Both the position numbers and the translations under genes were made by a program. The notes under the pieces are model-generated. The model was not told where the DNA came from. It worked only from the letters and a program-made list of their open reading frames with translations, and made no database searches. Positions 18,073 to 37,845 of a stretch of 38,989 nucleotides of DNA are shown one piece after another. Source of the stretch: Fidelibacterota bacterium (GTDB lineage: Bacteria > Pseudomonadota > Alphaproteobacteria > Rhodospirillales > Rhodospirillaceae); the NCBI GenBank assembly GCA_947470105.1, contig CANISR010000010.1, forward strand, positions 1 through 38,989, given 5' to 3'. Position 1 is the stretch's first letter; the number at the start of each line of letters is the position of its first letter.

Positions 18073-19590
18073 ATGCTTCGGGGGCTTTTCCATTCAGCGG
18101 CGCGGCGGGCGCCGGCGGTTGTGATCGTGGTGCTTGCATCTTGCAGCACTGCGCCCATGACCACGCCTGACGCGCGCTCTACTTCAGTCATGCCCGCCGT
18201 AGCGCCCCTTCAGGTGGCTTATGCCGCGCCCGAAGCCGTGCGCGTGGTGGCGACAGATATCTTCGCCGACATTGCCCGCGATCTGCTGGCAACACTGGAG
18301 GGGGGAAAGCGCATCGCCCTGCAGCCGTTCCGGGCTGCCGACATCCCCATCACGCTGGCCGTGGCCCAGGGGTTCAACGACGCTCTGGCCCACGCCATCG
18401 AAACATCGCCGGACCAAGCGGGAGTCATCGTGGCGCGCCAGGAATTGCCGCGTCTGTTTGCCGAAGCTGAGGAATTCGGTGAAGCCAAGGACGCCGCCCG
18501 CCTGCTGGAAGCCGCCCGCGCCGATGTGCTGGTCATCGGCACGTTGACGCCGGCACGGGGTGGTGTCGACATTACATATAAAGCGTTCGACGCCAGAAGC
18601 GGCCGGCAATTGGCCTCTGCGGCGCCGCGCTTCCGTGCGGTGGATACAGCGGCGCCCAAGGGCATGCCGCTCGATCAGGCCATTGCCGCCGCCGCCGAAG
18701 AACTCGCCCGCCAAGCGCCGGATATGCGCACGGTGGAGACGCTCGGCGTCTATTACCAACAAAGCGAAGTCCAGACCGCGCTCGGCGGATATATCGGCCG
18801 CACTCTGGTGGGGCGGCTGGCGGAAAAGATCAATGGCCTCCAATCCGCGCCGGCAGCCCTGTTGCGCCCCGACCTGCAGGCCATCGACAAACTCGACGCC
18901 GGCGGCGCGGAAGAGGTCATGGTGCGCGCCCGCCCGGGCGTGTTTTTGTTGAGCGGCACCCTCTGGGACCTCGGCGCTGATGTTGAAGTGCGGTTGTCCT
19001 TGCGCGGCGGTGGCGAACGGCAGGCGTCTTACGGTGTGCGCATCCGGCGCGATGCCATCCCCGCGAGCTTCCTGCCCCTGGCGCCTGTGGGGGGCCAATC
19101 AGCGCGGCGGGAAAACCTCGGGCCCTTAGGTTTGCAGCTCTCCAGCGATCGCGGTCGCAGGCCGGTCTATGCGGCGGGCGATCAGGCTCATCTTTTGGTC
19201 CAGGCGGAGCGGGACGGCTATCTCTATTGCTTCCACCAGGCCAGCGGTCACGCCGGCGGCGGCATAACCAAGATTTTCCCTAATCCCTATCACGCCAGTG
19301 CGCGGGTGCGCGGACAGGCCAGCGTGCATATCCCGGACGCGGCCATGAACTTTGTGCTCAAGGTCTATGGTCCGGCGGGGGTGGAGCAGGTGCGGTGCTT
19401 TGCCCTCGACCGCGACGCAGAGGCCGGGTTGCCGGCGGGCCTTCTCGGGCGCGGCCTGGAGCCGCTGGCCGTGAATTCCCTCGACGATCTCGGGCAAATG
19501 TTCCGCGGCCTTCCGGCGGCCAATGTCTCCGAGGCCAGCCTGATGATGACCATCGAATCGCGCCGCGCGGCCGTCGATCAGCTTAAGTGA
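18073..19590 (+). CDS. Lipoprotein with CsgG/FlgO-like modules and DUF4384-like C-terminus
   Basis: 505 residues from ATG 18073; an in-frame GTG at 18067 is an alternative start. The lipobox L21-A-S-C24 predicts lipid attachment. Residues about 50-195 read like a CsgG/FlgO/LpoB-type module (KRIALQPFRAADIPITLAVAQGFNDAL, ADVLVIGTLTPARGG), and a second similar stretch follows (about 210-330). Residues about 345-448 match DUF4384: LQLSSDRG, AERDGYLYCFHQASG, ITKIFPNPYHAS. DUF4384 is often found on or near caspase-like proteases, and a caspase-fold protein is encoded at the far end of this cluster. The probable location is the outer membrane or periplasm; the role is unknown. It is first in the plus-strand series. 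Confidence 0.82.
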   Translation: MLRGLFHSAARRAPAVVIVVLASCSTAPMTTPDARSTSVMPAVAPLQVAYAAPEAVRVVATDIFADIARDLLATLEGGKRIALQPFRAADIPITLAVAQGFNDALAHAIETSPDQAGVIVARQELPRLFAEAEEFGEAKDAARLLEAARADVLVIGTLTPARGGVDITYKAFDARSGRQLASAAPRFRAVDTAAPKGMPLDQAIAAAAEELARQAPDMRTVETLGVYYQQSEVQTALGGYIGRTLVGRLAEKINGLQSAPAALLRPDLQAIDKLDAGGAEEVMVRARPGVFLLSGTLWDLGADVEVRLSLRGGGERQASYGVRIRRDAIPASFLPLAPVGGQSARRENLGPLGLQLSSDRGRRPVYAAGDQAHLLVQAERDGYLYCFHQASGHAGGGITKIFPNPYHASARVRGQASVHIPDAAMNFVLKVYGPAGVEQVRCFALDRDAEAGLPAGLLGRGLEPLAVNSLDDLGQMFRGLPAANVSEASLMMTIESRRAAVDQLK

Positions 19591-19683
19591 CCAAAGCTGT
19601 GCCAAAAATGTTCCCTGATCCCTTCATAGCAGGCTTCGGGCCGGTCCTTGTTATGGACGGCCCTTGCGTATCCGGGGCCGGCA

Positions 19684-20379
19684 ATGACGGGGGTCATTTT
19701 GAATTTTTCACGCTGCATCAGGGCAATCGCATGGGCGCTGTGGGCCGGGGTGGCGATGCCGGCTGCCGCCGAAACCCAAATGGATGTGCAGCGGATCATC
19801 CTCGAAGAGTCCATGAACAGCAGGGTGCCGCCGGCCCTGGCCTTGGCGGTGGCCCGGGTGGAATCCAACTTCCAGCCCCGCGCCGTCAGTCCGGCCGGCG
19901 CCAAAGGCGTCATGCAATTGATGCCCAAGACCGCGCGCGATGTGTTCGGCGTGCGCGAGGACGAATTGCTGAACGCCCGGCTCAACATTCAGCTCGGCAT
20001 CGGTTACCTGGAGCAGCTCTACGACCAGTACGGCCACCGCTGGGACCTGGCGCTGTCTCATTACAACGGCGGCACGATAGCCGGTGGCGCGGGCGCCTAT
20101 GCTGTGCCCCACGACTACACCCGCAAGTATGTGGCGGACGTACAGCGCTGGCAGCGGTTCTATTCCGCCGGCGTGTTCGAACAGCGGCCTATCCAGTGGG
20201 CGAGCGCTCCTTTAAGGCCACGGAGCGCTCCCCGTACCGAAACGCAGGTCGCGCAGCAAGATCGTCCCTGGCGCAAGAACGGGACCATCGATCCCCTGGA
20301 GTTCAACGACTGGGCGGAAGTGGAACAACGCCGGGCCGCCATGCGTCGCGGCTTGGACGACTTCAGCCGCGCGGATTGA
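19684..20379 (+). CDS. Lytic transglycosylase, SLT domain (family 1 type)
   Basis: 231 residues from ATG 19684; a TTG at 19648 is possible but would spoil the signal peptide (IRAIAWALWAGVAMPAAA, cleavage near 28-30). The SLT domain covers about 33-150. The catalytic glutamate is E60 (ARVESNF), followed by GVMQLMPKTA (75-84), NIQLGIGYLEQLYDQYG and LSHYNGG. It cleaves peptidoglycan glycan strands to 1,6-anhydro products in the periplasm. The C-terminal 80 residues are polar and unstructured. It is encoded 1 base before the next gene, so it belongs to the cluster; specialised SLT enzymes commonly open the wall for envelope-spanning machines. Confidence 0.9.
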   Translation: MTGVILNFSRCIRAIAWALWAGVAMPAAAETQMDVQRIILEESMNSRVPPALALAVARVESNFQPRAVSPAGAKGVMQLMPKTARDVFGVREDELLNARLNIQLGIGYLEQLYDQYGHRWDLALSHYNGGTIAGGAGAYAVPHDYTRKYVADVQRWQRFYSAGVFEQRPIQWASAPLRPRSAPRTETQVAQQDRPWRKNGTIDPLEFNDWAEVEQRRAAMRRGLDDFSRAD

Positions 20380-20380
20380 T

Positions 20381-21967
20381 ATGAACGCGGCGGCGCGGTC
20401 ATTATTCATCGCCGGCGCCGAAGCGGGCATGGTCGAGGACTTTCGCGTCCTCTCCGATGCCACCGCGCCCGACGGCAGCCCGCGTTATCAGGAGCGCCCC
20501 GTCCTCACCGATCTCGCGCGCTTTCTGGTGCGGGCCGGTCCCAATCGCGACATGGCCTTCTATGAGCTGTGCCACTTGGTCAATGCGGTCGACGCATCGG
20601 ACAGAGCGCGCGATCGCCGCAACGCCTTCTTTCTTGGCCCGGAGCGCGCGTCGGCGGCGCGGTTTCGCCAGCGTTTGGACATGGCCTTAGCAAAAGGCGG
20701 CTGGCGCCGCACCGGCTTCAGCCGCACCGAGCAGGGTGTGGCCATCCGCTATGCCGATGGCGCTTTTACCGTCTCCTTCGGCCGCATGCCGTTCCTGGCG
20801 GCGCTATATGAGTTCCTGGCGGGCATGGAGGACTTTTCCTTCTATCCGGAGCTGCAGATCATCTTCGATGAAATGGCCCAGGGCGCCGGCGACATAAAAG
20901 CGGTGCAGACGGCCAGTAACCGTATTGCCAGCCACTTCCGCCAGTACCGCCGCAGCCATCTGGCACCGATCCGGCAGGATGGGAAATTCGATCTGCTGTT
21001 CGGATTCCTCGCCGCGCGCTCTCCCGCCGGCCGGGTGCAGGTGGATGACGCAGCAGTGCTGGACTTCTGGTCGGAGAAGTCGGCCTCGGGGGATTTTCGC
21101 TCCTACCGCACGGTCTTCGAGGCTTTCGTTCACTTCCTGCGCGCTCTCGCGGAATCGGCCCGCAGCGAATCCATGGCCCGGGCCGCCTCCATCGGCGTGG
21201 ACCGGGAAAACGGCGAGGTTGAACCCGACGACAGCGCGGCGGATTTTGACGGCGCGGAATGGGTTTCGCCGCTCAAAGTGCTGGATGAGGAACCGGCGGC
21301 GGCGATCAAGTTCTTTACCAAGGAGAATGAGCGCAAACCCATCGAGATCCTGATGCAGTACGGACCGGCGGCGCTAAGGCTGCCGCTGGCTTTCCTTCGC
21401 TTGGAAGCTTTCGGGCCGGTTCAGTCTGCGATCACCACCGATCTGCAGGTCGGGCGTGGCGCGGACAGCGTGCGGTTGCGCGCAAGCTGCGATGAGGCGG
21501 CGCCCTATGGCAAAATTGTCGCAGGCTTCGGTGAAATCCTGGAAATCATCCGGCGCCTGCAAAAAGCCGCCTTCTACGCTCTCCATAGGAACGCACAGAA
21601 CATTTCGCCGGGTGTGCATGCGCTGAGAACTCCTGAATCGGCGTTCGACTTGGCGCGGGAAAACGCGGCGGACAAAGATCTGCCCGCGCCGCAGGAGATC
21701 GAGCGGTTGATGGCTGAATCCGCCAAAGCCTTCCGCTCCATCTCGCGTAAAGGATTCGACGAGGCGGGTCTGCGCGATGAATCGCGCATTGAGGGATTCC
21801 GTATCGGCGCCGGGGCGCTGGTCGCGGCCGCGGCACAGATCGAAAGATACCTCGCTGCGGCAGGGCGCATCGGGCGCGGAGAGAACCTGGAAGGAAGGTT
21901 TCATGAGGATCGGCGGGTGTTCAGTCAAAAGTTCTGCGCTTTGTATGAGGTGAGTACCCATGAATAG
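20381..21967 (+). CDS. Large cytoplasmic protein of unknown function, envelope system
   Basis: 528 residues, no signal peptide and no membrane segment, so probably cytoplasmic. I do not recognise a family. It is acidic and mainly helical: a helical N-terminal part (40-180, with FSFYPELQIIFDEMAQG), a central segment with VLDFWSEKSASGDFRSYRTVFEAF (about 225-250), an Asp/Glu-rich stretch at 270-290 (VDRENGEVEPDDSAADFD), and a C-terminal helical part (390-528). No catalytic triad or nucleotide-binding motif is visible. It starts 1 base after the transglycosylase stop and overlaps the following gene by 8 bases, so it is tightly coupled. It may be a scaffold or cytoplasmic base component. Confidence 0.8.
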   Translation: MNAAARSLFIAGAEAGMVEDFRVLSDATAPDGSPRYQERPVLTDLARFLVRAGPNRDMAFYELCHLVNAVDASDRARDRRNAFFLGPERASAARFRQRLDMALAKGGWRRTGFSRTEQGVAIRYADGAFTVSFGRMPFLAALYEFLAGMEDFSFYPELQIIFDEMAQGAGDIKAVQTASNRIASHFRQYRRSHLAPIRQDGKFDLLFGFLAARSPAGRVQVDDAAVLDFWSEKSASGDFRSYRTVFEAFVHFLRALAESARSESMARAASIGVDRENGEVEPDDSAADFDGAEWVSPLKVLDEEPAAAIKFFTKENERKPIEILMQYGPAALRLPLAFLRLEAFGPVQSAITTDLQVGRGADSVRLRASCDEAAPYGKIVAGFGEILEIIRRLQKAAFYALHRNAQNISPGVHALRTPESAFDLARENAADKDLPAPQEIERLMAESAKAFRSISRKGFDEAGLRDESRIEGFRIGAGALVAAAAQIERYLAAAGRIGRGENLEGRFHEDRRVFSQKFCALYEVSTHE

Positions 21968-22484
21968 TTTTGAAATTGCCCCCGGTCAGGCAGCGCGGCT
22001 GCGCGAGACCTTTGCCGAGATCCAGGATGCGGAGGCGCTGCTGTGGCCGGCTGCGGATCGCAGCCGGCGCAAACGTATGAGCGCCGGCATGCTCTACGCC
22101 GCCGCCTGCGCTGGCCACCGCCCTGAGAGCGAATCTCTCGGTGCGCGGCGGTTTTACCGCCAGGCGGTCGCGGACACCGCGCGTTTCGCGTTGCCCCTGG
22201 CGCGCGCCGCCAGTTCCAGCCTCGCGCCCGCCCGTCACGGCGATGGCTGCAATATTCGCATCGAACGGTCCCGTGCCGAGCCGGATCAGTATTTTGTCCT
22301 GGTGGAGCTGGCCAAGGGCGCCCACACCTCGCCCACATCACTGATCGTCTGTGACGCCGAAGACCGCTGCCAGCGCTTCGCGCTGCCTGTGGCCCGGGAC
22401 GGCATCTCCCAGATCGTCGCGGAATCCGATTCCGAACTCATGCGCCTGATCAGCGATCCGGCGTCCAAGGTCTACCTCAGATGA
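21960..22484 (+). CDS. Small cytoplasmic protein of unknown function, envelope system
   Basis: 174 residues, start overlapping the previous stop by 8 bases. It has no signal peptide or membrane segment. The first half is helical (FEIAPGQAARLRETFAEIQDAEALLWP; RRKRMSAGMLYAAACAG), and the second half is beta-rich (YFVLVELAKG, SPTSLIVCDAED, RFALPVARDGISQIVAE). Five or six cysteines are scattered without a metal-site spacing. I do not recognise a family. Coupling to the 528-residue protein upstream and a 10-base gap to the membrane protein downstream suggest that the three act together. Confidence 0.78.
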   Translation: MNSFEIAPGQAARLRETFAEIQDAEALLWPAADRSRRKRMSAGMLYAAACAGHRPESESLGARRFYRQAVADTARFALPLARAASSSLAPARHGDGCNIRIERSRAEPDQYFVLVELAKGAHTSPTSLIVCDAEDRCQRFALPVARDGISQIVAESDSELMRLISDPASKVYLR

Positions 22485-22494
22485 AGCCGCCGAG

Positions 22495-23766
22495 ATGAAA
22501 AGGATCGCGGTCTTTGTGGCAACCACGGCCGGGCCCGTGCGGGTCGAGCGCATCACCCGCGAGCGGGCGCCGCAGTCCATGGTCTGCCTGAACCGCACAT
22601 CCACGGTGCTGCCCATCAGCGCCGCCTACGACAGCTTCGTCCGCCCCGGTAGCGGCGTCATCGAGCGTTCATTTGGGCCGTTTGAACCGGGCGCATTTCG
22701 ACTCGATGTGGCGGCGCCCATCGAAAGCGGCGAAAGCTGGCAACTCGGGTTTTTTATAGCGCATGCCCTGTGCCCAACGCCTGAAGGCGGCACCCTGGCG
22801 ACGGCTGAGCAGGCCGATGCGATCATCTGGCTGACAGGCCATGTGGACTGCGATCTGGCTGTGGGGCCGGTCGGCCATCTGCCCGAGAAAATCCATGCGT
22901 CCCGCGAGGCCTTCGCGGACTGGCGCGCCGTCGGGCGTCCGGTATCGGTGTTTGTCCCGGCCGGAGCCGATCATGACGCGGTCTATGGCGCCGGTGTGCC
23001 TGCGGGCGTGGACATCATCGCGGTGCATACGGCGGAAGAGGTGCTTGCGGCCCTCGGTGTGGCCATGGGCGGACCACCGGTCGCGCGCGGAAATACATTG
23101 CCGGCGCATCCCGCCACGGTCCGGCGGGCGCCGGCGCGTCTGTTGGCGGGCGGCCTTGTTCTGTCAGTGGCGGCGGCGGTCGCCTTAAGCCAATGGCCGG
23201 GGACTCCGGTGCCTGCGCCGTCGGAGCATCTTGAAGCGGTGGCGACGGCGCAACCTGCCGCGCTCCCGGTCGCGGAGCAACCGGCATCGGCGCCCGTCCC
23301 CGTCGTGACGCCACCGGTCCAGGCCGCGCCATCAGCAGTACGGGTCCTGATCGTGGAGCGGCGCGCGCCGGCGGGGCGTAGCTGCGCCGAGGTGCAGTTC
23401 GGCACAGTGGCAGCGACCGAAGCGCCCGTCGCGACGTCCGGAGCTGAACCGGGTACCAGTATGCTCCAGGGCCTCTGCGGTCTCGGGGTTGCCGTGGACA
23501 ACGGCGAGGCTCCGCGGTTCGCAGCGGTGAATGTCGAAGCTGTTGCGGGCAAACTCCTGTACGGCACGGTCCGGCCCGAGGCGTTCAACGGCCAGACCGC
23601 CTTCACCGGGCGGCATGAATGGGCCATCGATCTGCCGCGCCGGCTCAAAGGTCCGTTCGAGATCCGCGTCACCGCAACGACCGGCGCGCACCCCGTAGCG
23701 GAAACCGCCGACGCGGACTCCGGCGAGGTTGCAAACCTCGTCCTCCGGCACCGGGTTATTCCTTAA
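22495..23766 (+). CDS. Bitopic membrane protein with Pro/Ala-rich periplasmic linker, unknown function
   Basis: 423 residues. A beta-rich N-terminal domain (1-200, e.g. IAVFVATTAGPVRVERI, FFIAHALCP, ADAIIWLTGHVDCDL) is followed by one membrane segment at about 214-233 (RLLAGGLVLSVAAAVAL). A linker of about 45 residues rich in Pro, Ala and Val follows, then a C-terminal domain (280-423) with two cysteines (C300, C325) that could pair in the periplasm. The topology is therefore cytoplasmic domain, helix, stalk and periplasmic domain, as in TonB/TolA-like or secretion-stalk proteins, though no family is recognised. It ends a tightly packed set of three unknown genes and precedes a 78-base gap. 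Confidence 0.8.
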   Translation: MKRIAVFVATTAGPVRVERITRERAPQSMVCLNRTSTVLPISAAYDSFVRPGSGVIERSFGPFEPGAFRLDVAAPIESGESWQLGFFIAHALCPTPEGGTLATAEQADAIIWLTGHVDCDLAVGPVGHLPEKIHASREAFADWRAVGRPVSVFVPAGADHDAVYGAGVPAGVDIIAVHTAEEVLAALGVAMGGPPVARGNTLPAHPATVRRAPARLLAGGLVLSVAAAVALSQWPGTPVPAPSEHLEAVATAQPAALPVAEQPASAPVPVVTPPVQAAPSAVRVLIVERRAPAGRSCAEVQFGTVAATEAPVATSGAEPGTSMLQGLCGLGVAVDNGEAPRFAAVNVEAVAGKLLYGTVRPEAFNGQTAFTGRHEWAIDLPRRLKGPFEIRVTATTGAHPVAETADADSGEVANLVLRHRVIP

Positions 23767-23844: not shown

Positions 23845-24402
23845 ATGAAATCGACCTCACGCCGCTTAGCGCGGCTCGTACCTTATATAGTCGCTGGCGG
23901 TGGACTGTTGGCCGTAGCGGCCTGCAGCCACGGCGGCTCGGCGGACGGCATTGGCTTCCGCGAAGCGCGGTTCAGCGAGATGTCGGCGGTGCGCGACTGG
24001 CGCTCCTGCCGCGACGAGGCGCTGGATCTCGACCGCCAGGCCCGCGAAGAAGCGTCGGCTGCGCGGTATCTGGCCAGCGCCAAGCTGATCGAGAAATGCG
24101 AGTCCGACGTGGGCGCCGCCGCCAAGGTCAGCGGCGATGAGCGCATGCGCGCCTATGCGCTGGGGGTGCAGAACTACATCAAGGGCGGCGACGTACCCAA
24201 GGCGCGGGAAACCCTCGATCACCTCAAGTCGGCCTTCCCGGGTGCGGACTTCTACTACGCCAACGGCTCCTCCTTCATCGACACCATGGAGTTCCTCACC
24301 GGCGTGCGCGACCGCGCCACCGTCGGCGTGATCGGCGTCTCCAATGTGGACGAAGGCTTCAAGTCCGAGCTGCGCCGGACCCAGTACTGGAAGCGGAACT
24401 AG
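23845..24402 (+). CDS. Lipoprotein of unknown function, envelope system
   Basis: 185 residues. The signal peptide ends in a lipobox, LAVAAC (C27), predicting an N-terminally lipidated protein. The mature protein is short and helical, with charged helices (RDWRSCRDEALDLDRQAREEA; RYLASAKLIEKCE; KARETLDHLKSAF) whose spacing resembles two tetratricopeptide-like hairpins. C51 and C82 could bond. The C-terminus (FKSELRRTQYWKRN) is basic. No family is recognised. The start has the cluster's strongest ribosome-binding site, but this can pair with an upstream complement. It lies 29 bases before the next secreted protein gene. Confidence 0.8.
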   Translation: MKSTSRRLARLVPYIVAGGGLLAVAACSHGGSADGIGFREARFSEMSAVRDWRSCRDEALDLDRQAREEASAARYLASAKLIEKCESDVGAAAKVSGDERMRAYALGVQNYIKGGDVPKARETLDHLKSAFPGADFYYANGSSFIDTMEFLTGVRDRATVGVIGVSNVDEGFKSELRRTQYWKRN

Positions 24403-24431: not shown

Positions 24432-25298
24432 ATGACCAAGCACACCGCGTCGCGCCTTGCCGCCGCCGCTGCTCTCGGACTCCTGCTGTCCGGGCCAGCT
24501 TTCGCAGGAGACATTCCGGAGTGGCATCCGGAGTCCAGCGAGCGCCTGGTCAAGTTGCCGGCGACCTACCTGAAAAAATCCCTTGAGCATGACTTCGCTG
24601 AATCCGCTCTCGGCACCGCCCTGCGTGGCACCGACGGTGAAATCGGCTTCAAGGCAAAAACGCTGCAAGACCTGCAGAACTCCATCGCCAAGGCCGAAGG
24701 CGATATGCGCATCGAGTTGCGCCATCAGTTCCTCCACGAAAAGCGCGCTTACGTCGACATGATGTCCAAGCGCAACGAACTCCAGCGCAGTCGCGTGCGG
24801 ATCCAGACGCGCCTCTTGGAGGATATGCTGGCGCGCATGCGGCCCGGCAGCAGCGGCGATTCGCCGGCTAAGCAGGAACTGATCAAACGTCAGGATGCGG
24901 CCAGGGCCCGTTTTGAATCTTCGCTGTCCACTGTGGACATGCGCCTGTTCAATTCCTCCTCGGCGCCGGAGAGCAAATATTCGGTCAAATACGCCGAGAA
25001 CTCCGCCGCCATTGAACAATTGGTGGCGCGCATCAATACCCACAAGATGAACGACGCCGTGGTGGCCGACGGCGAGAACATGAGTAAGGAAGACTACGTG
25101 CGCCAGATGCTGGCGGACGCCCAGGCCGAGTCCGCCATCATCGACCAGGAAGACACCATCCTCGGTTATATGGCCAAGTTGGTGGCGCTGGACGCTCTGG
25201 CCCTGGCCGACGAGGCCCTCGATCCGGCCTCGGCCGACTCACTCTCGCCGGAGCGCACGACGCCGGCGGCCATGACCTCGCTTTTCACCACCAACTAA
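24432..25298 (+). CDS. Secreted helical protein of unknown function, envelope system
   Basis: 288 residues with a clear signal peptide (RLAAAAALGLLLSGPAFAG, cleavage near 25). The mature protein is rich in Glu, Lys, Arg and Ala and almost certainly helical; residues about 70-150 (QDLQNSIAKAEGDMRIELRHQ, KRNELQRSRVRIQTRL) look like coiled coil. A second helical part follows at 190-260. There are no cysteines and no catalytic motif. The ribosome-binding site AAGGGGG precedes the ATG. No family is recognised. It may be a periplasmic adaptor or stalk component; this is inference from composition and location. Confidence 0.8.
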   Translation: MTKHTASRLAAAAALGLLLSGPAFAGDIPEWHPESSERLVKLPATYLKKSLEHDFAESALGTALRGTDGEIGFKAKTLQDLQNSIAKAEGDMRIELRHQFLHEKRAYVDMMSKRNELQRSRVRIQTRLLEDMLARMRPGSSGDSPAKQELIKRQDAARARFESSLSTVDMRLFNSSSAPESKYSVKYAENSAAIEQLVARINTHKMNDAVVADGENMSKEDYVRQMLADAQAESAIIDQEDTILGYMAKLVALDALALADEALDPASADSLSPERTTPAAMTSLFTTN

Positions 25299-25324: not shown

Positions 25325-25711
25325 TTGCGCCTCACATCCATCCTCGCTCTCGCCGCCACTGGCCTCGCCCTGTCTGCAGGCTTCGCGGCCGCCGACACCC
25401 TCGACAACCTGGAGCGCGAACGCGCCCTGCTCATCGAAGCCATGCTTGATCCGGGCCTGGCGCCGGCGGAGCGGCAGGCGCGTATCGAAAGCGAACAGCG
25501 CCGCCTGGTGGACCTGGAGCGCATGGTGCTGCGCGACGAATCCCTCAAAGGCCGCAATACGCCGACGGTGCGCAAGGCCTTCGCCAACTACGACCTGACA
25601 TTCCTGGTGCACGCCTCGCTCGAGAAGAAGGTGTCGCTGATGGACAACTGGATGGACCAGGTCGGCATCAGCACCAATACCTTGATGGCCGCGCGCAAGG
25701 GCCGCCGCTGA
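25325..25711 (+). CDS. Small secreted helical protein of unknown function, envelope system
   Basis: 128 residues with a TTG start at 25325, preceded by AGGAG about ten bases upstream. The signal peptide (TSILALAATGLALSAGFAAA) ends near residue 23. The mature part is two or three charged helices (DNLERERALLIEAML, RQARIESEQRRLVDLERMVLRDE) and a basic tail (ARKGRR). It resembles the preceding gene product in style, and both may pack through coiled coils. It is followed after one base by the ExbB/TolQ-like gene. No family is recognised. Confidence 0.78.
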   Translation: MRLTSILALAATGLALSAGFAAADTLDNLERERALLIEAMLDPGLAPAERQARIESEQRRLVDLERMVLRDESLKGRNTPTVRKAFANYDLTFLVHASLEKKVSLMDNWMDQVGISTNTLMAARKGRR

Positions 25712-25712
25712 G

Positions 25713-26246
25713 ATGTCATCAGAGCCGCCAGTCCTGACCATGCGGCCGCAGGTTTCGCGCCAGGTGATCCTCACCCGGCGCGAAGTAGACTCGGCTGTGG
25801 TCGGCGGTATCGTCGCGGTGACTGGGTATCTCGGCTTTGCCCTGGCGGGTGCTGGTGACATGGAGACCCTCCGGGCGGTGGCGGCGAAATTTCTCGGCGT
25901 CTCGGCGCCGCTGTTCGCTGCTGCGGGCGTCTTTCTGCTGTGGGTAACAGGCGCGCTGATCGTCGATGTGGCCGGTCTGTCCCCCGCCCGCCGGCGCTGG
26001 GATGGAATTGCCAGCGCGCTGTTCTACCTGGAGAATGCCGCACCGTTCGTGGGTTTGCTCGAGTGCTTCCTCAGCATCGTTCGGGCGTTGCTGGCCTATT
26101 CCGAAGCCGGCGCCAGCGCCGCGGCCCAATCGATCCTCATCGCCAATATCGCCGTGGCCTTGGGGGCCTCTGCGGCCGGCTGCTTTGTGGCTCTGTGCGC
26201 CCACAGCCTCAAAGCGATGATCGCCCAGCGCATGGGCGCCCCGTGA
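25713..26246 (+). CDS. Divergent ExbB/TolQ/MotA-like motor stator subunit
   Basis: 177 residues, shorter than typical ExbB/TolQ (about 230-245). Three hydrophobic segments are visible at about 28-46, 60-90 and 135-160. The last two carry the family pattern: GLLECFLSIVRAL at 114-126 aligns with TolQ GLFGTVWGIMHAF, and NIAVALGASAAGCFVALCA at 145-163 aligns with GIAEALIATAIGLFAAIPA. Two conserved threonines of the ion path are altered: Cys118 at the first, Ser153 at the second. In ExbB/TolQ/MotA, five such subunits surround a dimer of ExbD/TolR/MotB. The next gene looks like that partner. I infer a proton-driven motor; the assignment is by eye. Confidence 0.65.
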   Translation: MSSEPPVLTMRPQVSRQVILTRREVDSAVVGGIVAVTGYLGFALAGAGDMETLRAVAAKFLGVSAPLFAAAGVFLLWVTGALIVDVAGLSPARRRWDGIASALFYLENAAPFVGLLECFLSIVRALLAYSEAGASAAAQSILIANIAVALGASAAGCFVALCAHSLKAMIAQRMGAP

Positions 26247-26668
26247 GCGGCTCTTATAATCCCGCCGGTGAAGTCGGCAATCTCCGCCTGCCGGTACCGT
26301 TCTTCGACCTGCTGATGGTGCTGTTGGTGACCTGTCTTGTGTTCGTGGCGCCCCTGCCGCCGGAAGGCGAAAAGGTTCAGGCCATGGACATTTCCATCGC
26401 TGAAGGAAAAACCAAATCCAGCGCCGACGCTCTTTTGCCGGTGACGGCGCGCCAGACGCCCGGTGGTTGGGCCTTCACGGTCGCCGGCGAAACCACAGTG
26501 ATTCCGCCCGCAGCACTTGCGCAGCGCGCCACCGCCGAAGGCCGCAAAATCGTGCTGGTGGTCCCGCCCGCCACCGCGCTGCAGGACCTTGTCAGCATGC
26601 AGACCGCCGTGACCGCCTTGCATGTGCCGTTCGCCCTCGCCATCAAGAGCAAGGAGATCCATCCATGA
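26243..26668 (+). CDS. ExbD/TolR-like motor subunit
   Basis: 141 residues with a GTG start overlapping the upstream stop (GTGA). A short polar N-terminus is followed by one membrane segment: RLPVPFFDLLMVLLVTCLVFVAP at about 15-37. D22 sits where ExbD D25 and TolR D23 carry protons. After it comes a periplasmic domain of about 100 residues with alternating strands and helices (AEGRKIVLVVPPATALQDLVSMQTAVTALH), close to the ExbD fold 'V.I.ad......V..vl..l...G'. The tandem with an ExbB-like gene strongly supports the call. The overlapping gene order suggests equal translation with its partners. Confidence 0.75.
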   Translation: MSGSYNPAGEVGNLRLPVPFFDLLMVLLVTCLVFVAPLPPEGEKVQAMDISIAEGKTKSSADALLPVTARQTPGGWAFTVAGETTVIPPAALAQRATAEGRKIVLVVPPATALQDLVSMQTAVTALHVPFALAIKSKEIHP

Positions 26669-27345
26669 TCCGCACCGCAATCCTCGCCGGAATTTTCCTG
26701 GTGTTGCTCTCCATTGCCTATAGCCGCCCAGGTACGGGCCTTTTACCGCCGCTGACGCGGAACGCGTCCCAGGTTGCCGCGCAGGCTGATCTCGCGCCGA
26801 AGCCGGCCGCGCCCGCGACCATCGCATCTGAGGCCCCGGTGGTTGCTGCCGCGCCCGTGAAGCCCGTGCTCCCTGTGGAAGTTGCTCATAAAGAAGAGAC
26901 GGTAGCGCTACCCGCCCAGCCGCCAGTACAGGCAGAAGCGCTGCCCGTGCCGGCACCGGATGTGGCGCCGTCGACGGCTCCCGCGGTCGCACAAACTGCT
27001 GCGCCCACTGTGGGTCAGCCTGTCTCACTCCTGCCGCCCGCCGAAACTGTTCCGGCGCGTGTGGCCGTGGCGCCGCCTGCGGCTTTGACGCCGGCGGAAG
27101 ACCTGCCCTTGATCACCGTCCCGGCGCGTCCGGTGGTGACGCCCTGGGAAGCGGCGCCGCGCACCCGCGCCGCCATGGCTGCCGCCGCTCCCGCTGCGCC
27201 GTCCGCGCCTGCGGCGGTGGCCGCTGCAGCCAAGCAGCCCGATGAAGCCGCGCCGAAGCTGATGACGCCGCAAGAGCGCAGCCGCGAGCTTTATCGCCTA
27301 GCGCGCGAGATGGAAGACACCTTCATCCACAAGCTCGCCCGCTGA
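26665..27345 (+). CDS. Membrane-anchored Ala/Pro-rich protein, envelope system
   Basis: 226 residues, ATG overlapping the previous stop (ATGA). One N-terminal hydrophobic segment (MIRTAILAGIFLVLLSIAY) probably anchors it in the inner membrane. Residues about 35-195 are low-complexity Ala, Pro and Val with scattered Glu and Lys, likely an extended periplasmic rod. The C-terminus is a charged helix (TPQERSRELYRLAREMEDTFIHKLAR). It resembles the stalk part of TonB/TolA-type proteins without a recognised C-terminal domain. Alanine-rich composition makes remote homology hard to assess. It is cotranscribed with the motor-like pair. Confidence 0.75.
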   Translation: MIRTAILAGIFLVLLSIAYSRPGTGLLPPLTRNASQVAAQADLAPKPAAPATIASEAPVVAAAPVKPVLPVEVAHKEETVALPAQPPVQAEALPVPAPDVAPSTAPAVAQTAAPTVGQPVSLLPPAETVPARVAVAPPAALTPAEDLPLITVPARPVVTPWEAAPRTRAAMAAAAPAAPSAPAAVAAAAKQPDEAAPKLMTPQERSRELYRLAREMEDTFIHKLAR

Positions 27346-27349
27346 TTCC

Positions 27350-28639
27350 ATGGCCGCGGCCGCGCCTCACCAGACCGGCGTGGACCGGGAGCGCGCCGCC
27401 GCCGCCGTGATTTTCGCGGTGGCCGCGGCCGTGGCGGCCTGGATTCTGCTGCACCGCCCGGCGCCGGTTCCCCTGCGCGTTGCGCCGCCACCCCAATCGG
27501 CGCCGGAATCCGCACCGGAGCCCCCGTCCCAGGCCGCAGCTCCATCGCCACCCGAGTCCTTGGCCTTCGAGCTGGTCGAGTTGCCCGCGCCCGCTCCGGC
27601 ACCTGCGCCTCCAGTCGAAGCGCCGCCCGTGCCTCCGCCGCCAGTGCGACCGCCGGTTCAGATGCCACGGGCGGAGGCACCGCCGCCGCCGTTGGAAAGC
27701 ACTCTGCCGCCCGCCGAGGCGCGCCCGGTTGCGAAGCCCCTCGTGCCGTTGATTCCTATGGAAGCGCCGCCGGCAATTGAACCGCCGCCGCCCGTGATGC
27801 CGCTACAGCCTGAGTCGGCCCCCCTGGCGGAAATCATTCCGCTGGCCCCCACGACGGAGGAGCGTCGCCCGCCATTGCCGGCGAAGTCGGTCGTACCGCT
27901 TCAACCCGGCGATGAGAAACCCAGCCCAAAGCCCACGCCGCCAAAGCCACTGATTTACGTGGAGGAGAAGGCCCCCGAGCCCCCGCCGCGGAAGGCGGCA
28001 CAAGTGCCCGTCAAGGTCCGACCAGTGCCGCCGCCAGAACCGCGCGCAGCTAAGGTCGAGTCTGCTCCGCCCCCACTGCCACAGGCCCCGCCCCAGCCTA
28101 TCACCGACAAAGAGGTCGCCACCGAGGGGCGTGTCCTGCTGCGCATGTTCGAGCAAGGCGCCGGACCCAGCATTGAGATCCGCTGGCCGTCCCAGGCCGG
28201 ACAGCGCGACCGGCTCTATGATGTGTTTGTGCAGTGCCTGGGGATGCGGGTCGGCATTCTGGACGATCAAGGCCACCTCTACCTAGGTGACGGGCCGCGC
28301 AACCAGGCGCTGACATTGAACACCGATAAATACAGCGGCTTTGTGCGCCGGCCCGAGGGCGCCATCGCGGAGGACGAGCAGCGCGAGATCGCGCGTATTC
28401 GCGCCTACCATGCTTCGGCGTCAGGTGCCCCGCCGGCGCGGATGTTCCCGCGGCGAGTGGACTCATTCCTCATCGGTGGGCTGCGCCAAGCCGTGGGCGA
28501 TCAATATCTCAAAATGAAATCCATTCGCGCGGCTTACCGCCTCAACGGCGGCCGTGTGATGATCGAATCGATCGTCGCCGACGGCAGGCAGGTCGCCGGC
28601 GTCATCGACCTCTCGACGGTCGCGTCCTGCTCTAATTAA
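27350..28639 (+). CDS. TonB-like membrane-anchored Pro-rich protein, envelope system
   Basis: 429 residues. A short cytoplasmic tail precedes one membrane segment (AAAAVIFAVAAAVAAWILL, about 17-35), then about 230 residues extremely rich in Pro, Glu, Lys and Ala, the layout of TonB. The C-terminal domain (about 265-429) is folded: TEGRVLLRMFEQGAG, IRWPSQAGQRDRLYDVFVQCLGM, YRLNGGRVMIESIVADGRQVAG. It lacks the YP motif of TonB and does not match a TonB C-terminus I recognise. Cysteines near 300 and at the end (ASCSN) could bond. By position and design it would carry force from the motor-like pair across the periplasm. Its stop overlaps that of the convergent protease gene. Confidence 0.75.
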   Translation: MAAAAPHQTGVDRERAAAAVIFAVAAAVAAWILLHRPAPVPLRVAPPPQSAPESAPEPPSQAAAPSPPESLAFELVELPAPAPAPAPPVEAPPVPPPPVRPPVQMPRAEAPPPPLESTLPPAEARPVAKPLVPLIPMEAPPAIEPPPPVMPLQPESAPLAEIIPLAPTTEERRPPLPAKSVVPLQPGDEKPSPKPTPPKPLIYVEEKAPEPPPRKAAQVPVKVRPVPPPEPRAAKVESAPPPLPQAPPQPITDKEVATEGRVLLRMFEQGAGPSIEIRWPSQAGQRDRLYDVFVQCLGMRVGILDDQGHLYLGDGPRNQALTLNTDKYSGFVRRPEGAIAEDEQREIARIRAYHASASGAPPARMFPRRVDSFLIGGLRQAVGDQYLKMKSIRAAYRLNGGRVMIESIVADGRQVAGVIDLSTVASCSN

Positions 28640-30087
28640 TGGAGTTGGCGATTGCGCGGCGCGGCGGGCGCCGCCAGGGACAGCGCCGCGCCATGAAGCT
28701 GAGGCTCCTGCACGTATTCGGCGCCGCGTTTCGCCGACACCCGCCGCACTTCGCGCGTGACATAGCTTTGCAGGGCATTGGCGTCGTCGGCGCCGTCGAG
28801 CAATCCGCGCATCACGAAATAGCTGAACAGCCGGTAGCCATGTTCCGGATAGTCGTTGGCGAACTGATAAGACTGGCCGGCCAGGAACACGGTGGTTTTG
28901 CCGGTAGCCCCCGCTGGCGTCGCCGGTAGCGGCGAAGGCACCAGCGGGGCCGCCCCCGGAAACAATGACTCATCTTTGCTGATGCGGCCCGAGAAGCAGG
29001 TGTCGAGGAACGCCACCACCCGCGACGCGTTGGACGTCTCGAACCGGCGCAGCAATGCGGCCAGCGACAGCATTTCGATCTCGTAGGCGCCGGGCACCGC
29101 ATCCTTGGGCACCATGAAGACATTGGCGCCGTCGCGGGACGAGAGGCCGTGGCCGGTGTAGTAGAAATAAACCGTGTCGCCGGCGGTCAGGCGCTGCACC
29201 AGGGAGTTCAGACGGCCCAGGATCTTCACGCCGGTGGCGTCGGCGCCTGTGATCAAGGTGACGTTTTCCTCCGGGATGCCGTAGCGCTTGCCCAGGAGGT
29301 CGGCCATGGTCTTGGCGGTGCGCGCCGCGAACGGCACGCTGGGCGCGTCGTCGTATTGCTCGACACCCACGGCGAACAGGTAGCGCCGCGCATCGGGCCG
29401 CGCCGCCGGAAGACGTGCGATTAACGGCGTCAGATCATCATCGACCTGGCCTTTGGCTATTGCGGGTGTTGAGGGCGGCAGCAGCGACACCGGCTCCGCG
29501 CGCGTGGCGGACTGCCGGTGGGCTTCGTCCGATGAGCGGTGAAGGCCGCCGAAATTGACCTGAAACACGCTGGCGCGGTCCGCGACGGCATCGGCGTCGC
29601 GCCATTGCATGCGTACGGGGACTGACAGGGCAAAGGGCTGGGTGCCGCGCGCGGCGCCGTCGGGGTCGAAGATCGCGGTCATGATGGCCGATCCGCCCGG
29701 CCCCACCGAGATCCAGTCGCTGTCCGGCTGTACGTCGCCGAGGCGCGACATTTCGATCAGGCGGTAGTCCGCGCCCTGAGCGTTGCGCAGGCGCAACATG
29801 CCCTTGGGCTCGCGCACGCGGGCAATCATATCTGCAATGGTGTCGGCGCCCTGCCGGTTCAAGGCCAGGGATGCGGGCGCGGTGTCGCTGGGGTTATGAA
29901 ATGACATCTGCGCCTGGACGCGGCCGTCGCGCATCTCCAGGAATTCTTCCAAGCGCACCAGCATGCCGCCGACCCTCATGGCGCTGCCCGCGGCCGGTGT
30001 CGCCGCGGCACGTGCTGCAAGGGGCGCGCAGCATGCGAGCGCGAAAGACGCAGCGAAGGCCATGCGCTTGATCCGCTCAATCTTCAT
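28636..30087 (-). CDS. Secreted caspase-family (peptidase C14-like) protease
   Basis: 483 residues with a signal peptide (MAFAASFALACCAPLAARAAA, cleavage about residue 28), so it acts in the periplasm or outside. The N-terminal module (35-200) is beta-rich and unrecognised. The caspase domain begins around 235 (RRYLFAVGVEQYDDAPSVPFA) and has catalytic H313 (YYTGHGLSSRDG) and C364 (FLDTCFSG). It ends with PEHGYRLFSYFVMRGLLDGADD, typical of bacterial caspase-like proteins. Caspase-type enzymes cut after Arg/Lys or Asp; specificity is unclear here. It is second in a minus operon, its start overlapping the preceding stop by 11 bases, and convergent with the TonB-like gene. Confidence 0.9.
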   Translation of the reverse strand: MKIERIKRMAFAASFALACCAPLAARAAATPAAGSAMRVGGMLVRLEEFLEMRDGRVQAQMSFHNPSDTAPASLALNRQGADTIADMIARVREPKGMLRLRNAQGADYRLIEMSRLGDVQPDSDWISVGPGGSAIMTAIFDPDGAARGTQPFALSVPVRMQWRDADAVADRASVFQVNFGGLHRSSDEAHRQSATRAEPVSLLPPSTPAIAKGQVDDDLTPLIARLPAARPDARRYLFAVGVEQYDDAPSVPFAARTAKTMADLLGKRYGIPEENVTLITGADATGVKILGRLNSLVQRLTAGDTVYFYYTGHGLSSRDGANVFMVPKDAVPGAYEIEMLSLAALLRRFETSNASRVVAFLDTCFSGRISKDESLFPGAAPLVPSPLPATPAGATGKTTVFLAGQSYQFANDYPEHGYRLFSYFVMRGLLDGADDANALQSYVTREVRRVSAKRGAEYVQEPQLHGAALSLAAPAAPRNRQLH

Positions 30088-30880
30088 AGCGGTCGCGGCC
30101 TTTGTGCTTGCCGTTATCGTGGAGGGCGTCGGGGATCCATCCGAAAAGATTGCCGAAATAGAACTCCGGCAGTTTCACGCGGCTCTCGGATTGGCGGTAG
30201 ACCGGCGGGCGGCGCGTCGGCGTGGCATCGGCATAGGCGCGACGCTGAGGCTGCGCCGGAAGTGCTGACGTGGGGGTATTCCAGCGCTGCGGTGACGCAG
30301 AGGACGAAGGCCGGCCGCGGGCGTAGGCGCGTTCATCCGGCAGTGAGGTTAGCGTCGGCGCGCTGACGATTTGCCAGGATCCGTCGCGCTGCCAGCAGGC
30401 TTTACCGTAAGCCGTGCGTGGGGAGCCGCCGTCCATGATGGTCTGCTGATACTCGCGGCAATATTGCGACGGCGGGTCCAGCGCTGCGGCGCTGCGGTGT
30501 GCAGATTTTGCCGGAGCGGCGACAATACGCAACGACCCATCGGGTTGCTCACACAAAGTTCCGGAGCGATCGCCGCCTGCGCCCACGGGATAATATTCGC
30601 GGCATGCCGGTTCAGAGTCACGCGGCGCGCGCGACGCCATCTGCGCGACAGGAGGCTCCGGTTGGGAAAAATCCTCGCCCTCGGTCACATAGGATTCCGA
30701 GGGGTCTGCCACATAGAAGTCGTAGGAGTCGGAAACCGGCGGTGACGCGCGTTCGGAAGAATAGGCCGCCGGCGAATCATACTCGGCCTCGCCGAAGGTG
30801 GCGCGATCTTGAGCCGCCGCCTCCAGCGCCCAAGCGGCCATGGCCGCACCGAGGACGATCCGGAAAACCACACCAGACAC
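30077..30880 (-). CDS. Secreted protein with two surface-antigen-type Cys motifs
   Basis: 267 residues with a GTG start at 30880 and a G-run ribosome-binding site. A signal peptide ends at about 23 (ALEAAAQD). Two copies of a Cys motif are visible: ACREYYPVG...LCEQPDGSLRIV at about 92-120, and YCREYQQT...ACWQRDGSWQIV at about 140-172. The unit CREY...C...DGSW.IV is known from rickettsial 17-kDa-type surface antigens, where it closes a small beta domain. The N-terminal third is Ser/Tyr/Pro-rich and the C-terminal part is basic. It is the first gene of the caspase operon, so it may be a partner, inhibitor or target of the protease. The role is unproven. Confidence 0.8.
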   Translation of the reverse strand: MSGVVFRIVLGAAMAAWALEAAAQDRATFGEAEYDSPAAYSSERASPPVSDSYDFYVADPSESYVTEGEDFSQPEPPVAQMASRAPRDSEPACREYYPVGAGGDRSGTLCEQPDGSLRIVAAPAKSAHRSAAALDPPSQYCREYQQTIMDGGSPRTAYGKACWQRDGSWQIVSAPTLTSLPDERAYARGRPSSSASPQRWNTPTSALPAQPQRRAYADATPTRRPPVYRQSESRVKLPEFYFGNLFGWIPDALHDNGKHKGRDRYED

Positions 30881-34643: not shown

Positions 34644-34881
34644 CATTTGCAGCCTTCAGTTCTGGCGCGCGCGGCGTAGCACTGCATGCGCTGGCGCCGA
34701 CGGGGGCAGAGCCGCCTTTCCTTGTGGCCCAGCTCGCCGTCCTGATTTCTTTTGTGATCGCAGGGGTCCTGGCGACCAGGCCGTTCCAACAGGCGCCGGT
34801 GGCTGCCTAAGCCCAAGGGTTGCGTACAGGAATCCAACACCTTAAAGCTGCCTCTCGGGGGTGACAGGCAGGCTGAGGTTG
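34644..34881. other. Intergenic region without a supported gene
   Basis: These 238 bases follow the terminator and precede the next plus-strand gene. Open frames here look random. It should hold the promoter for the downstream transporter-like gene; GAGG seven bases before the ATG at 34882 is a fair ribosome-binding site. No repeat or RNA structure was recognised. Confidence 0.45.
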
Positions 34882-37845
34882 ATGAAGATTCGCGTGTCGG
34901 GTCGGGTGATGAGCTTCGCGGTCCTGGCCACGGCCTTGGCTGCCGCCAACACCTATGGCTCGACGATCGCCGCCGCCCTGTTCCTGAACCGCGCCGGCGC
35001 CACCGCCATCCCGCTTTACTATGTGCTTTACGCCGCGCTCTCGATCCCCTTGTCGGTGGCGTTCTCGCGGGTGATCGACCGCTGGCCGCGCCCGGTGTTA
35101 TTCAGAGCGCTGCTGGCGCTGGGCGCCGTTGCCATGGCCGCGGCCGCACCATTGGCGCGGAGTGAGTCGGTCGCGCTGTTCTACGCGCTCTACATCGTCG
35201 TCAGCGTTTTCGAACAGCTCAGCTACAGCGTCTTCTATGTGTTGATCGCGGACTACTTCACTTCCGTGGAAACCAATCGCAGCACCACGGCGCTGGCGGT
35301 GGGCATGGCGCTCGGGGGGCTTGCGGGCGGCGGCCTGGCAGGTGTGGGCGCCGAGCATTTTTCCGCCGCCAGCCTGATGTTCGGGATGCCCGCGCTGTTG
35401 GCCGGCGTGGCGGGACTGTTCATGGTCATCCGCCGTACGACGCCGCCGCTGGGAGAAGCCGAGCCTCAGGCCGAGGAGGGCCTGATGGCCAGCCTCGCCG
35501 CGCTGCGACCGCTAATTGCCCGTTATCCCATCGTCACATTCCTCGCGGCCGGCGTGTTCCTCAATATCGTCGTGCAGAGCTTGATCGAATACCAGGTGTT
35601 CGTGGTTTACACCGAGCACTATCCCGATGAACGGGAGCTGACCCAGTTTCTCGGCGTGCTCAACGGCGTATTGAACCTGGTGAATATCGTCACCAGTTTT
35701 CTGCTGACGGGACCGCTGCTGGCGCGTGTGGGCGTCGCGCGCATGAACCTGGTCTACCCGGCCATGACCATCTCGGCCTTCGCGGCCCTGGGCGCGTCGT
35801 TTTCATTGCCGGCGGCGATCTTCAGCCACACGGTCTACGACCCCTGGGCCCACAGTGTGGATGCGCCGGTATTCGTCGCCAACTACAACGCCATGCCGCA
35901 CCGCTTCGTCGGGCGCGTCCGCATCTTCAACGACGGTCTGATGTATCCCCTGGCCATGGCGGCGGCGGGCGCCGGGCTGTGGATGTTCCAGGACGTCGTC
36001 TCCCAAGGCACGGTGACGGCGATTGGTTTCCTGTTCGCGATCGCCTTCCTGGTGTGCGGCTTCTTTATCCGCCGCTCCTACACCCGCGGGCTCATGGAGA
36101 TGCTGCGCTCGGGCTCGGTGGATTTGAACGATAGCGAGGATGCCATCGGCGTTGTGCCGCCGGAGCTGCACGGCGACATCCGCAGACTCCTCGGCAGCGG
36201 CGACGAGCACAGCCAGGGTCTGGGACTGGAGCTGGCAGCGCGCAGCGATCCGCGCCTGTTCCAGCGCGAGATCGAAGACCTGGTGGCCCGCGCCGCGGCC
36301 CCCGTGCGCAGCATCTTCATTCGCCAGTTCGCCAGCCAACTGACGCCGGAGCTGACCGGGATGCTGCTCAGCCTGCTGGAGGCCGAGGAAGCCTCCGTGC
36401 GCGCCACCGCCATGGAAGCACTGATGACGGCGAACCATCGCCTGGACGATACCTTGCTGGAAAAGCTGGCGCGCGATCCTGCCATCAGCGTGGCGAGCCT
36501 CGCCGCTGTCGAAGCGTTCAGGCGCGGTCATGAAACCCCAGCGGTCACAACAGCCATTGACCGCCTGCTGGCCGCCAACGAGGCCTTGAGATTGCGGGTG
36601 CTGCAGGCCATCCGCCGCTGCAACGATCCAGCACTGCTGCCGATTCTCGATCGCCTGCGCCAAACGTCTTCGGACCGGGTGATGACCGCGGTTCTCGACG
36701 CCGCCGCGGATCTCGGCCCGAATACTTCGGTGCCGGGATGGGCCCACGAGACGCTCATCATGGCCACCGATCCTCACCAAGGGGCCTTGCGCGCCGCAGC
36801 CTACCGCTTGCTGGCGACCCAGGGCGACCCTGGCGACATCTTCACCGTGGCGGCGGGATTGGAAGACCCCTTGAAAGAAGTGCGCCTCGCGGCTGCCGCC
36901 GGACTTGCGGCCTTCGGCGAGGCGGCCCTGCCCGCAGTCGAGAGCGCGCTCCGCTCGGGCCAGGATATTCACGAGGATGCGGCCACCGAGGCGGCGGGGC
37001 GCATCGGCGGCGCGGCGGTAGATCATTTGCTGTACCAGCATCTCGCGGCCCGGCATTTCAGCGCGGTGAAGCGCAACACCCGCTGGCTGCAGTTGCTGCC
37101 GCCGGTGGATGGCAGCGCCAACGACCCTTGGACGCCGCTGGCGACAGCTCTTACGGACGCCAACCGCCGTGCCCTCGATGTTGCGTTGGATATCCTAGGC
37201 GCGCTGGGCTACCGACGCACCCTTCAAGCTATGCGCGGCATTCTCTCCAACGGATCGGCCCGCAGCCGGGCCAATGCGGTGGAAACCATCGCTTCCATCG
37301 GCCATCGCCGATTCGTTCAGCCGCTCCTGCCCATGCTCGAAGCTGGCCTCGACGCGGTGGTGGTGCGGCAAGGCGCCGGTTCGCCGTCGGAACTGGCGGA
37401 GATGCTGAAGGCCGCGGCCGCTGATCCCAACCGCTGGATCCGCGCCGGCGTGTTGTTCGCCGATTTATTGAATATGCCGCCGGACGGCGAAGCCGACCCC
37501 ATCGTTCAAAACACCGCCACGCACTTGCGCAGCCCCACAACCGAGGAATCCGTCATGAACCGCCTCATTTTCCTGAAATCGGTGCCGTTGTTCGCCGGGC
37601 TCTCGCTGGACGACCTCTTGTCTGTCGATCAGGCTCTGGGTCACGAAGACTACCTGGCGGGCGAGGCCATGACACCGGCACCACGCTCTATATCCTGGCC
37701 AGCGGCACAGCCGCAGTGCGGCTCGGCGGCAGCGCGCCGGATGGATCGAACGGCAAGGAGGTCGCCCGCCTGTCGGCCGGGGATTTCTTCGGCGAGATGT
37801 CGCTGTTCGACGATCAGCCGCGATCGGCCACGGTCATGGCCGTAA
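34882..37845 (+). CDS. MFS/nucleotide-carrier-like protein with HEAT repeats, C-terminus frameshifted
   Basis: In this frame about 987 residues from ATG 34882; a GTG at 34861 is possible. About 12 membrane segments (1-400) begin AVLATALAAANTYGSTIAAALFLNRAG, like ATP/ADP-carrier (Npt) or MFS transporters. HEAT-type repeats follow (about 430-880; e.g. VRATAMEALMTAN, LRAAAYRLLATQGDPGD, RLAAAAGLAAFGEAALP). The start of a cyclic-nucleotide-binding domain (LIFLKSVPLFAGLSLDDLLSV) comes at about 895. After GEAM at 37660-37671 the frame turns to non-coding-looking sequence and stops at 37845, while the rest of the domain continues in another frame. Transporter-HEAT-CNBD fusions occur in other bacteria; the substrate is unknown. 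The break may be a real mutation or a sequencing error. Confidence 0.85.
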   Translation: MKIRVSGRVMSFAVLATALAAANTYGSTIAAALFLNRAGATAIPLYYVLYAALSIPLSVAFSRVIDRWPRPVLFRALLALGAVAMAAAAPLARSESVALFYALYIVVSVFEQLSYSVFYVLIADYFTSVETNRSTTALAVGMALGGLAGGGLAGVGAEHFSAASLMFGMPALLAGVAGLFMVIRRTTPPLGEAEPQAEEGLMASLAALRPLIARYPIVTFLAAGVFLNIVVQSLIEYQVFVVYTEHYPDERELTQFLGVLNGVLNLVNIVTSFLLTGPLLARVGVARMNLVYPAMTISAFAALGASFSLPAAIFSHTVYDPWAHSVDAPVFVANYNAMPHRFVGRVRIFNDGLMYPLAMAAAGAGLWMFQDVVSQGTVTAIGFLFAIAFLVCGFFIRRSYTRGLMEMLRSGSVDLNDSEDAIGVVPPELHGDIRRLLGSGDEHSQGLGLELAARSDPRLFQREIEDLVARAAAPVRSIFIRQFASQLTPELTGMLLSLLEAEEASVRATAMEALMTANHRLDDTLLEKLARDPAISVASLAAVEAFRRGHETPAVTTAIDRLLAANEALRLRVLQAIRRCNDPALLPILDRLRQTSSDRVMTAVLDAAADLGPNTSVPGWAHETLIMATDPHQGALRAAAYRLLATQGDPGDIFTVAAGLEDPLKEVRLAAAAGLAAFGEAALPAVESALRSGQDIHEDAATEAAGRIGGAAVDHLLYQHLAARHFSAVKRNTRWLQLLPPVDGSANDPWTPLATALTDANRRALDVALDILGALGYRRTLQAMRGILSNGSARSRANAVETIASIGHRRFVQPLLPMLEAGLDAVVVRQGAGSPSELAEMLKAAAADPNRWIRAGVLFADLLNMPPDGEADPIVQNTATHLRSPTTEESVMNRLIFLKSVPLFAGLSLDDLLSVDQALGHEDYLAGEAMTPAPRSISWPAAQPQCGSAAARRMDRTARRSPACRPGISSARCRCSTISRDRPRSWP

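Follow-up and report, generated by a model that had tools for sequence, protein, structure and literature searches.

The window analysed here, a 38,989-nucleotide stretch of contig CANISR010000010.1 (Fidelibacterota bacterium assembly GCA_947470105.1, placed by GTDB in the Rhodospirillaceae), carries a gene for a secreted C14 caspase (28636-30087, minus strand, 483 aa) that lies between a gene for a Cys-motif protein and an operon with Tol/Ton-like motor components. The catalytic domain of the caspase (approximately residues 230-477) scores 30.7 bits with PF00656, above the cut-off of 21.4 bits. A first-pass annotation, made from the letters of the window, had described the catalytic residues as intact, and this is borne out: His313 (in YYTGHG), Asp362 and Cys364 (in DTCFSG) are identical in 14 of 14 aligned caspases, the window caspase among them, and the mostly confident model of the catalytic domain has the MALT1 paracaspase as its nearest solved structure (Z 22.9, rmsd 3.2 Å, 220 residues; Foldseek was also run on the model). 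Residues 28-215 are modelled at pLDDT below 50, and a fold is not claimed for this part. Asp362, two residues before Cys364, presumably gives a preference for cleavage after Arg or Lys. The signal peptide named in the same annotation is also found at the N-terminus by inspection (MKIERIKRMAFAASFALACCAPLAARA), from which export of the caspase may be read. The score with NF047832 (EACC1-associated caspase) is below the cut-off (76.6 against 140 bits), and a scan of the genome contigs with the single caspase protein returned one distant locus (L052; genomes and loci are given as G and L numbers), which was not used. On sequence grounds the caspase match is judged real and not due to chance; the gene is real, and its product, judging from sequence and model, is probably an active, exported enzyme.

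Upstream of the caspase on the same strand is a gene for a secreted protein of 267 aa (30077-30880; signal peptide by inspection) with two Cys motifs of the type found in 17-kDa antigens. The two genes share 11 bases (30077-30087), as noted at first pass, and at its other end the caspase gene converges on the motor operon with overlapping stop codons, TTAA at 28636-28639 being common to it and to the last operon gene (27350-28639, plus strand). The two copies of a CREY...C...DGSW.IV unit described earlier are recovered unequally. The second scores 81.5 bits, which is no independent evidence because the motif model contained that copy, and the first is weak (15.5 bits, with DGSL in place of DGSW). 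PF16998 (17 kDa surface antigen) scores 16.5 bits on the protein, below its cut-off of 26.6. A whole-length match to it was found in the order-wide search only in its own genome.

The operon itself is common to 28 other loci of the order, and is complete where contigs allow. The shared genes are all on the plus strand in the window and begin with a lytic transglycosylase (SLT; 19648-20379, PF01464 86.8 bits), followed by conserved proteins of 528 aa (20381-21967) and 174 aa (21960-22484), each with tblastn matches at 23 of the 28 loci; a PDB profile search with the family of the former gave no useful match. The next product (22495-23766) has a Lon-type Ser/Lys domain (approximately residues 1-192), a transmembrane (TM) segment and a predicted periplasmic C-terminus, with TM and topology assigned by inspection. 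After it come a lipoprotein of 185 aa with a lipobox recognised by inspection (23845-24402, matches at 27/28 loci), a secreted protein of 288 aa used as the marker gene of the system in order, class and phylum searches (24432-25298), and a secreted protein of 128 aa (25325-25711, 28/28 loci). The motor genes proper are a proton channel of ExbB/TolQ/MotA type (25713-26246; PF01618 27.1 bits, above the cut-off of 22.9), an ExbD-like protein with one TM and a PFFDLLMVLLV stretch seen on sequence inspection (26243-26668), a TM protein rich in Ala and Pro whose C-terminus is common to some loci (26665-27345), and a protein of TonB/TolA-like architecture, with a TM, a Pro-rich spacer and a conserved C-terminal domain (27350-28639). 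The last has 24 homologues at the 28 loci, with 26 invariant columns. The ExbD-like gene is not in the list of shared genes, which otherwise runs from SLT to 27350. Often added to the shared set are a homologue of the secreted protein encoded at 16929-17876 (minus strand; signal peptide by inspection, no Pfam match, tblastn matches at 11 of the 28 loci), a short one-TM protein and a lipoprotein after 27350. Between 16929-17876 and the transglycosylase, the window has a DUF4384 protein (18067-19590, plus strand; PF14326 54.5 bits) with a lipobox by inspection and a CsgG/FlgO-like middle (CsgG 17.9 and FlgO 14.4 bits, both below cut-off).

The N-terminal 211 residues of the Lon-like protein are modelled at pLDDT 88, and the best PDB matches of the model are Lon proteolytic domains (Z 15.3, rmsd 3.0 Å, 160 residues), then RadA; its Foldseek matches include BrxL. 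Ser81 and Lys132 are invariant (23 of 23 sequences). In alignment, Lys132 falls on the lysine of the Lon stretch, and the equivalence of the Ser is taken from the motif. The sequence-profile match to PDB Lon chains is weak (E 0.016-0.1), with no Pfam Lon match. A Lon-type Ser/Lys fold is predicted for this protein.

The ExbB-family channel, the ExbD-like TM stretch and the transducer with TM and Pro-rich region are shared with Tol-Pal and TonB-ExbBD systems, as are OmpA-type and lipoprotein neighbours at some loci. The island differs from these systems, however, in its Lon-like membrane protein, lytic transglycosylase, DUF4384 proteins and optional secreted protease, and in a transducer C-terminal domain without a PDB match in the profile search.

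The caspase pair sits together with 13 other genes on an island of about 14 kb (16.9-30.9 kb). In G008, a genome of the same genus, the flanks are kept on both sides (w5987-w7854-w12851 and sulfatase-32742-NHL), while the island genes are all absent between them and the marker has no match; the interval is filled with other genes and is not a bare site. Because the syntenic flanks enclose no island genes, the motor operon, the caspase and the Cys-motif protein look like one unit of gain or loss. With G008 as the single comparison, several steps of gain or loss are possible. Misbinning of the contig is unlikely, given the flank synteny in G008 and the presence of homologues of the flanking sulfatase in 13 of 18 other genomes of the genus (54-68% identical; one partial, and one in two pieces of 62% and 45%). 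A phage or plasmid origin was rejected, with no PHROG match for ten island proteins, no plasmid match for the marker protein and no IMG/VR relative. Two flanking genes have features of their own. The 1077-aa open reading frame at 12851-16084 matches two separate stretches of G008 (L194, 4933-6675 and 7205-8575) and may be two genes in-frame. At 34861-37845 an MFS transporter is fused to HEAT repeats, and the end of this reading frame resembles, on inspection, a frame-shifted cyclic-nucleotide-binding domain.

Searches for the marker were positive in 29 of 317 genomes at order level, 19 of 385 at class level and 8 of 398 at phylum level (own genome counted each time). The order set spans 16 genera, and within its own family the marker is found in its own genome only. 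Its distribution is patchy. A PF00656 scan of the 29 order marker genomes gave 72 matches, and 15 of these genomes have a caspase no more than about 11 kb from the marker (G000, G262, G261, G086, G294, G074, G260, G253, G106, G110, G157, G094, G255, G104 and G187). In the class set, a linked caspase is found in 5 of 18 marker genomes (G317, G475 twice, G501, G691 and G692). From the density of other caspases, 0.33 linked loci would be expected in the order and 0.23 in the class. PF00656 occurs in 23/29 marker genomes against 86/288 others (Fisher 2.6e-7, kinship ignored); these are lower bounds, because that scan missed the window's own caspase. Seven other loci at phylum level, searched with a caspase profile made for this analysis in place of PF00656, include one with a caspase and one with a trypsin. 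The arrangement varies: G157 has its caspase inside the operon (L087), G475 has related caspases on both operon sides (L133, 2847-5135 and 18485-19900), and a same-subfamily caspase of G263, on a separate 4.2-kb contig (L104), was not counted as linked. A non-random tie of the caspase to the neighbouring motor operon, where the first-pass annotation recorded convergence only, is supported by these counts.

Other proteases are found in the same place. Trypsin-like genes are present at four of the 28 order loci (L073, L084, L093 and L094), of which L093 also carries a caspase; the L084 trypsin scores 74.7 bits with Trypsin_2. None was seen at the 18 class loci in a motif search that can miss members. 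Three further loci (L092, L098 and L100) carry a degenerate caspase that has lost GHG, with a signal peptide by inspection. Pfam detects no caspase in these proteins; hhalign against the caspase profile gives E 1.5e-5 (probability 80%); in 30 column shuffles E never fell below 0.1. In a first tree, reduced from 93 to 91 rows by dropping identical rows (L088 is a twin of L004, the linked caspase of G094, here labelled 'first'), the window caspase falls in a starred set of 27 rows that includes 14 linked caspases; at least 7 changes of the linked label are required. In a second tree of 85 rows, with six long rows (three of them linked) left out and L004 labelled as linked, the smallest starred set with the window caspase comprises 40 rows, among them 16 of the 18 linked, 21 'first' and 2 of the 44 control rows. 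Here the linked label has to change at least 5 times. These changes may be gains or losses, and 'first' rows were chosen by similarity to the window caspase. Repeated recruitment of proteases to the operon is favoured by these trees, though not proven.

Several observations weigh against treating the caspase as part of a motor system. The linkage counts ignore kinship. Of the marker genomes, 14 of 29 in the order and 13 of 18 in the class show no linked PF00656 caspase (several contigs are cut), and the protease is therefore optional. The position and subfamily of the caspase differ between loci, and 13 linked caspases share only 18-29% identity with that of the window. The window caspase is also a long branch, and its grouping with linked caspases is weaker after removal of the long rows. 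The linked caspase of G317 (L122, 12572-14137) has a convergent position but no signal peptide, and carries a C-terminal hydrophobic segment; it is a different type at the same place. On the motor side, the ExbD-like protein has no Pfam match at E 0.01, its TM Asp stretch being recognised by inspection only, and profile searches with the TonB/TolA-like protein gave neither a Pfam match nor a PDB relative.

Genes of 17-kDa type are found at the operon in L097 (G096) and in the class loci L118, L119, L122, L123 and L127, that is 5 of 18 class loci, which come from 17 genomes (G594 has two loci, G501 none). All are on the operon strand; they directly adjoin a DUF4384-type gene in L097 and L122, and are less than about 1.5 kb from one in L118, L119 and L123. 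In five genomes with a motif gene at the operon (G096, G690, G613, G524 and G522, three of them of one genus), no PF00656 caspase was found. Beside the trypsins of L084, L093 and L094, three loci of one family, is a divergent motif lipoprotein, missed by the first motif model and tied to the motif by profile comparison alone (probability 89.5%, E 2e-6, best of 100 shuffles 1.4e-3; with a smaller motif set, 30-40%, E 3e-4 to 5e-4, best shuffle 7e-3). In L029 and L030 (G086 and G106, one genus), a separate, secreted-looking caspase gene overlaps the gene of a lipoprotein that has the motif at its C-terminus (479-1402 and 1372-2688 in L029, with identical layout in L030); PF16998 scores 20.7 bits on this lipoprotein, below cut-off. 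At one of 40 control caspase loci (L146, 3743-5008, in G221), a caspase with a signal peptide by inspection itself ends in the Cys motif (...FGTECQQPDGSWRTV); it is the only such fusion among 103 caspase-profile matches across all loci examined, and has no motor-operon link within the 8.7 kb read. None of the 40 control loci has a separate motif neighbour. The own genome holds six other motif-family matches at E 1e-3 or better. With a motif family this common, chance alone should produce some co-location (about 1.6 in 47 loci of 22 kb, by an arithmetic estimate). A contig-end fragment in G003 (L197, 154-378), a genome of the same genus without the marker gene, is homologous (43%) to the first motif region of the window protein.

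The partner, inhibitor or substrate relation proposed at first pass thus fares unevenly. An association of protease and motif does recur, in the trypsin loci, the overlapping genes and the fusion; however, it is set against the operons with a motif but no detected caspase, the controls, and the restriction of whole-length matches to one genome. The same evidence bears on a protease/Cys-motif couple that is independent of the motor, in which the caspase is localised or inhibited by the motif protein, or cleaves it. The gene overlaps in the window and in L029 and L030, the trypsin-lipoprotein neighbours and the L146 fusion would fit such a couple, but the five caspase-less genomes and the 0/40 controls do not, and we consider it improbable. 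Since the motif recurs at operons without a detected caspase, yet is fused to or overlaps unlinked caspases, it has the look of a localisation or envelope module in common use, and not of an inhibitor or substrate reserved for the caspase; on sequence evidence, such a module would place proteases and machine parts at the envelope.

The patchy marker distribution and the exchange of trypsin for caspase could also indicate a conflict or phage-defence system, with the motor complex as sensor of an attack on the envelope and the protease as effector. PMC7159879 describes trypsin and caspase peptidases as mutually exclusive, interchangeable components of NTP-dependent conflict systems such as EACC1-caspase and VMAP, and PMC12799240 describes the canu caspase-nuclease defence, where a MALT1-like caspase activates a nuclease, and a recurrent acquisition of proteases by defence systems. 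The PADLOC caspase model matches the window caspase (E 2.7e-11), the L084 trypsin matches RT-Protease_XI (3.8e-7), LmuA (1.1e-5) and others, and the phage restriction factor BrxL is among the Lon-fold relatives. However, the PADLOC matches reflect shared peptidase domains, and of eight window proteins examined in PADLOC the other seven gave only a weak partial match of the ExbB-like protein to ZorA (11.6 bits, E 0.022), which does not place it in Zorya. The ten island proteins searched have no PHROG match, and no nuclease, AAA, vWA or GTPase domain is among the island Pfam matches. With canu the island has in common a MALT1-like caspase fold and the recurrent acquisition of proteases, but its caspase has a signal peptide and no nuclease accompanies it among these matches. 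With the EACC1-caspase and VMAP systems it has in common the exchange of trypsin and caspase peptidases, but it differs in its extracytoplasmic setting, in the lack of AAA, vWA and GTPase matches and in an NF047832 score below cut-off. A defence role is rather unlikely on this balance.

An unlikely alternative of a different kind is a machine for surface biogenesis or maturation, with the motor assembling or exporting surface proteins that the protease processes or releases. DUF4384/CsgG-like, 17-kDa and OmpA-type proteins are present at the loci, and the linked caspases L088 and L077 have SH3 or peptidoglycan-binding domains; on the other hand, no porin or usher is among the island Pfam matches, and the protease is optional. 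Of the papers on prokaryotic orthocaspases and metacaspases, PMC3501461 reports metacaspase operons with surface antigens and OmpA, and PMC6426788 reports alphaproteobacterial pseudo-orthocaspases with trypsin and DUF4384 domains. The window caspase shares with these C14 proteases the p20 fold, the His/Cys dyad and the Asp two residues before the Cys, and differs from them in its signal peptide and its tie to a motor operon.

The reading that we favour, at about even confidence, is that the caspase is an exchangeable secreted-protease module of an island-borne, proton-driven, Tol/Ton-like trans-envelope system, because the island genes are absent between conserved flanks in a close relative, the operon recurs, and caspases, trypsins and degenerate caspases are repeatedly found at it. 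In such a system, ExbB and ExbD would power the TonB/TolA-like 27350 protein. With the transglycosylase opening the wall, this protein would extend as far as lipoproteins of the outer membrane (DUF4384/CsgG-like and 17-kDa type). The membrane-bound Lon-like protein may sense or process on the cytoplasmic face. Either the state of the motor or a disturbance of the envelope would switch on the periplasmic caspase, which would then cut an envelope substrate after Arg or Lys, with the Cys-motif protein most likely holding protease or machine at the outer membrane or peptidoglycan. The output may be defence, surface maturation or killing.

Among the literature matches listed (titles and abstract openings, with subscription literature mostly outside), none describes this operon. 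The analysis points to a proton-driven envelope system with a protease module as undescribed. More tentatively, and with some doubt, it may represent an undescribed class of trans-envelope protease machine, proton-driven, with a Lon-like protein inside and a swappable caspase or trypsin outside, for envelope surveillance or killing from the periplasm. In passages of PMC12799240 and PMC7159879, the bacterial caspases described have targets in the cytoplasm or work close to the inner membrane. The motor, the Lon-like protein, the protease and the Cys-motif protein form a defined gene set for deletion work. If the favoured reading is true, the export of a caspase and its repeated recruitment to a Tol/Ton-like motor operon would bring the envelope into the range of caspase biology.

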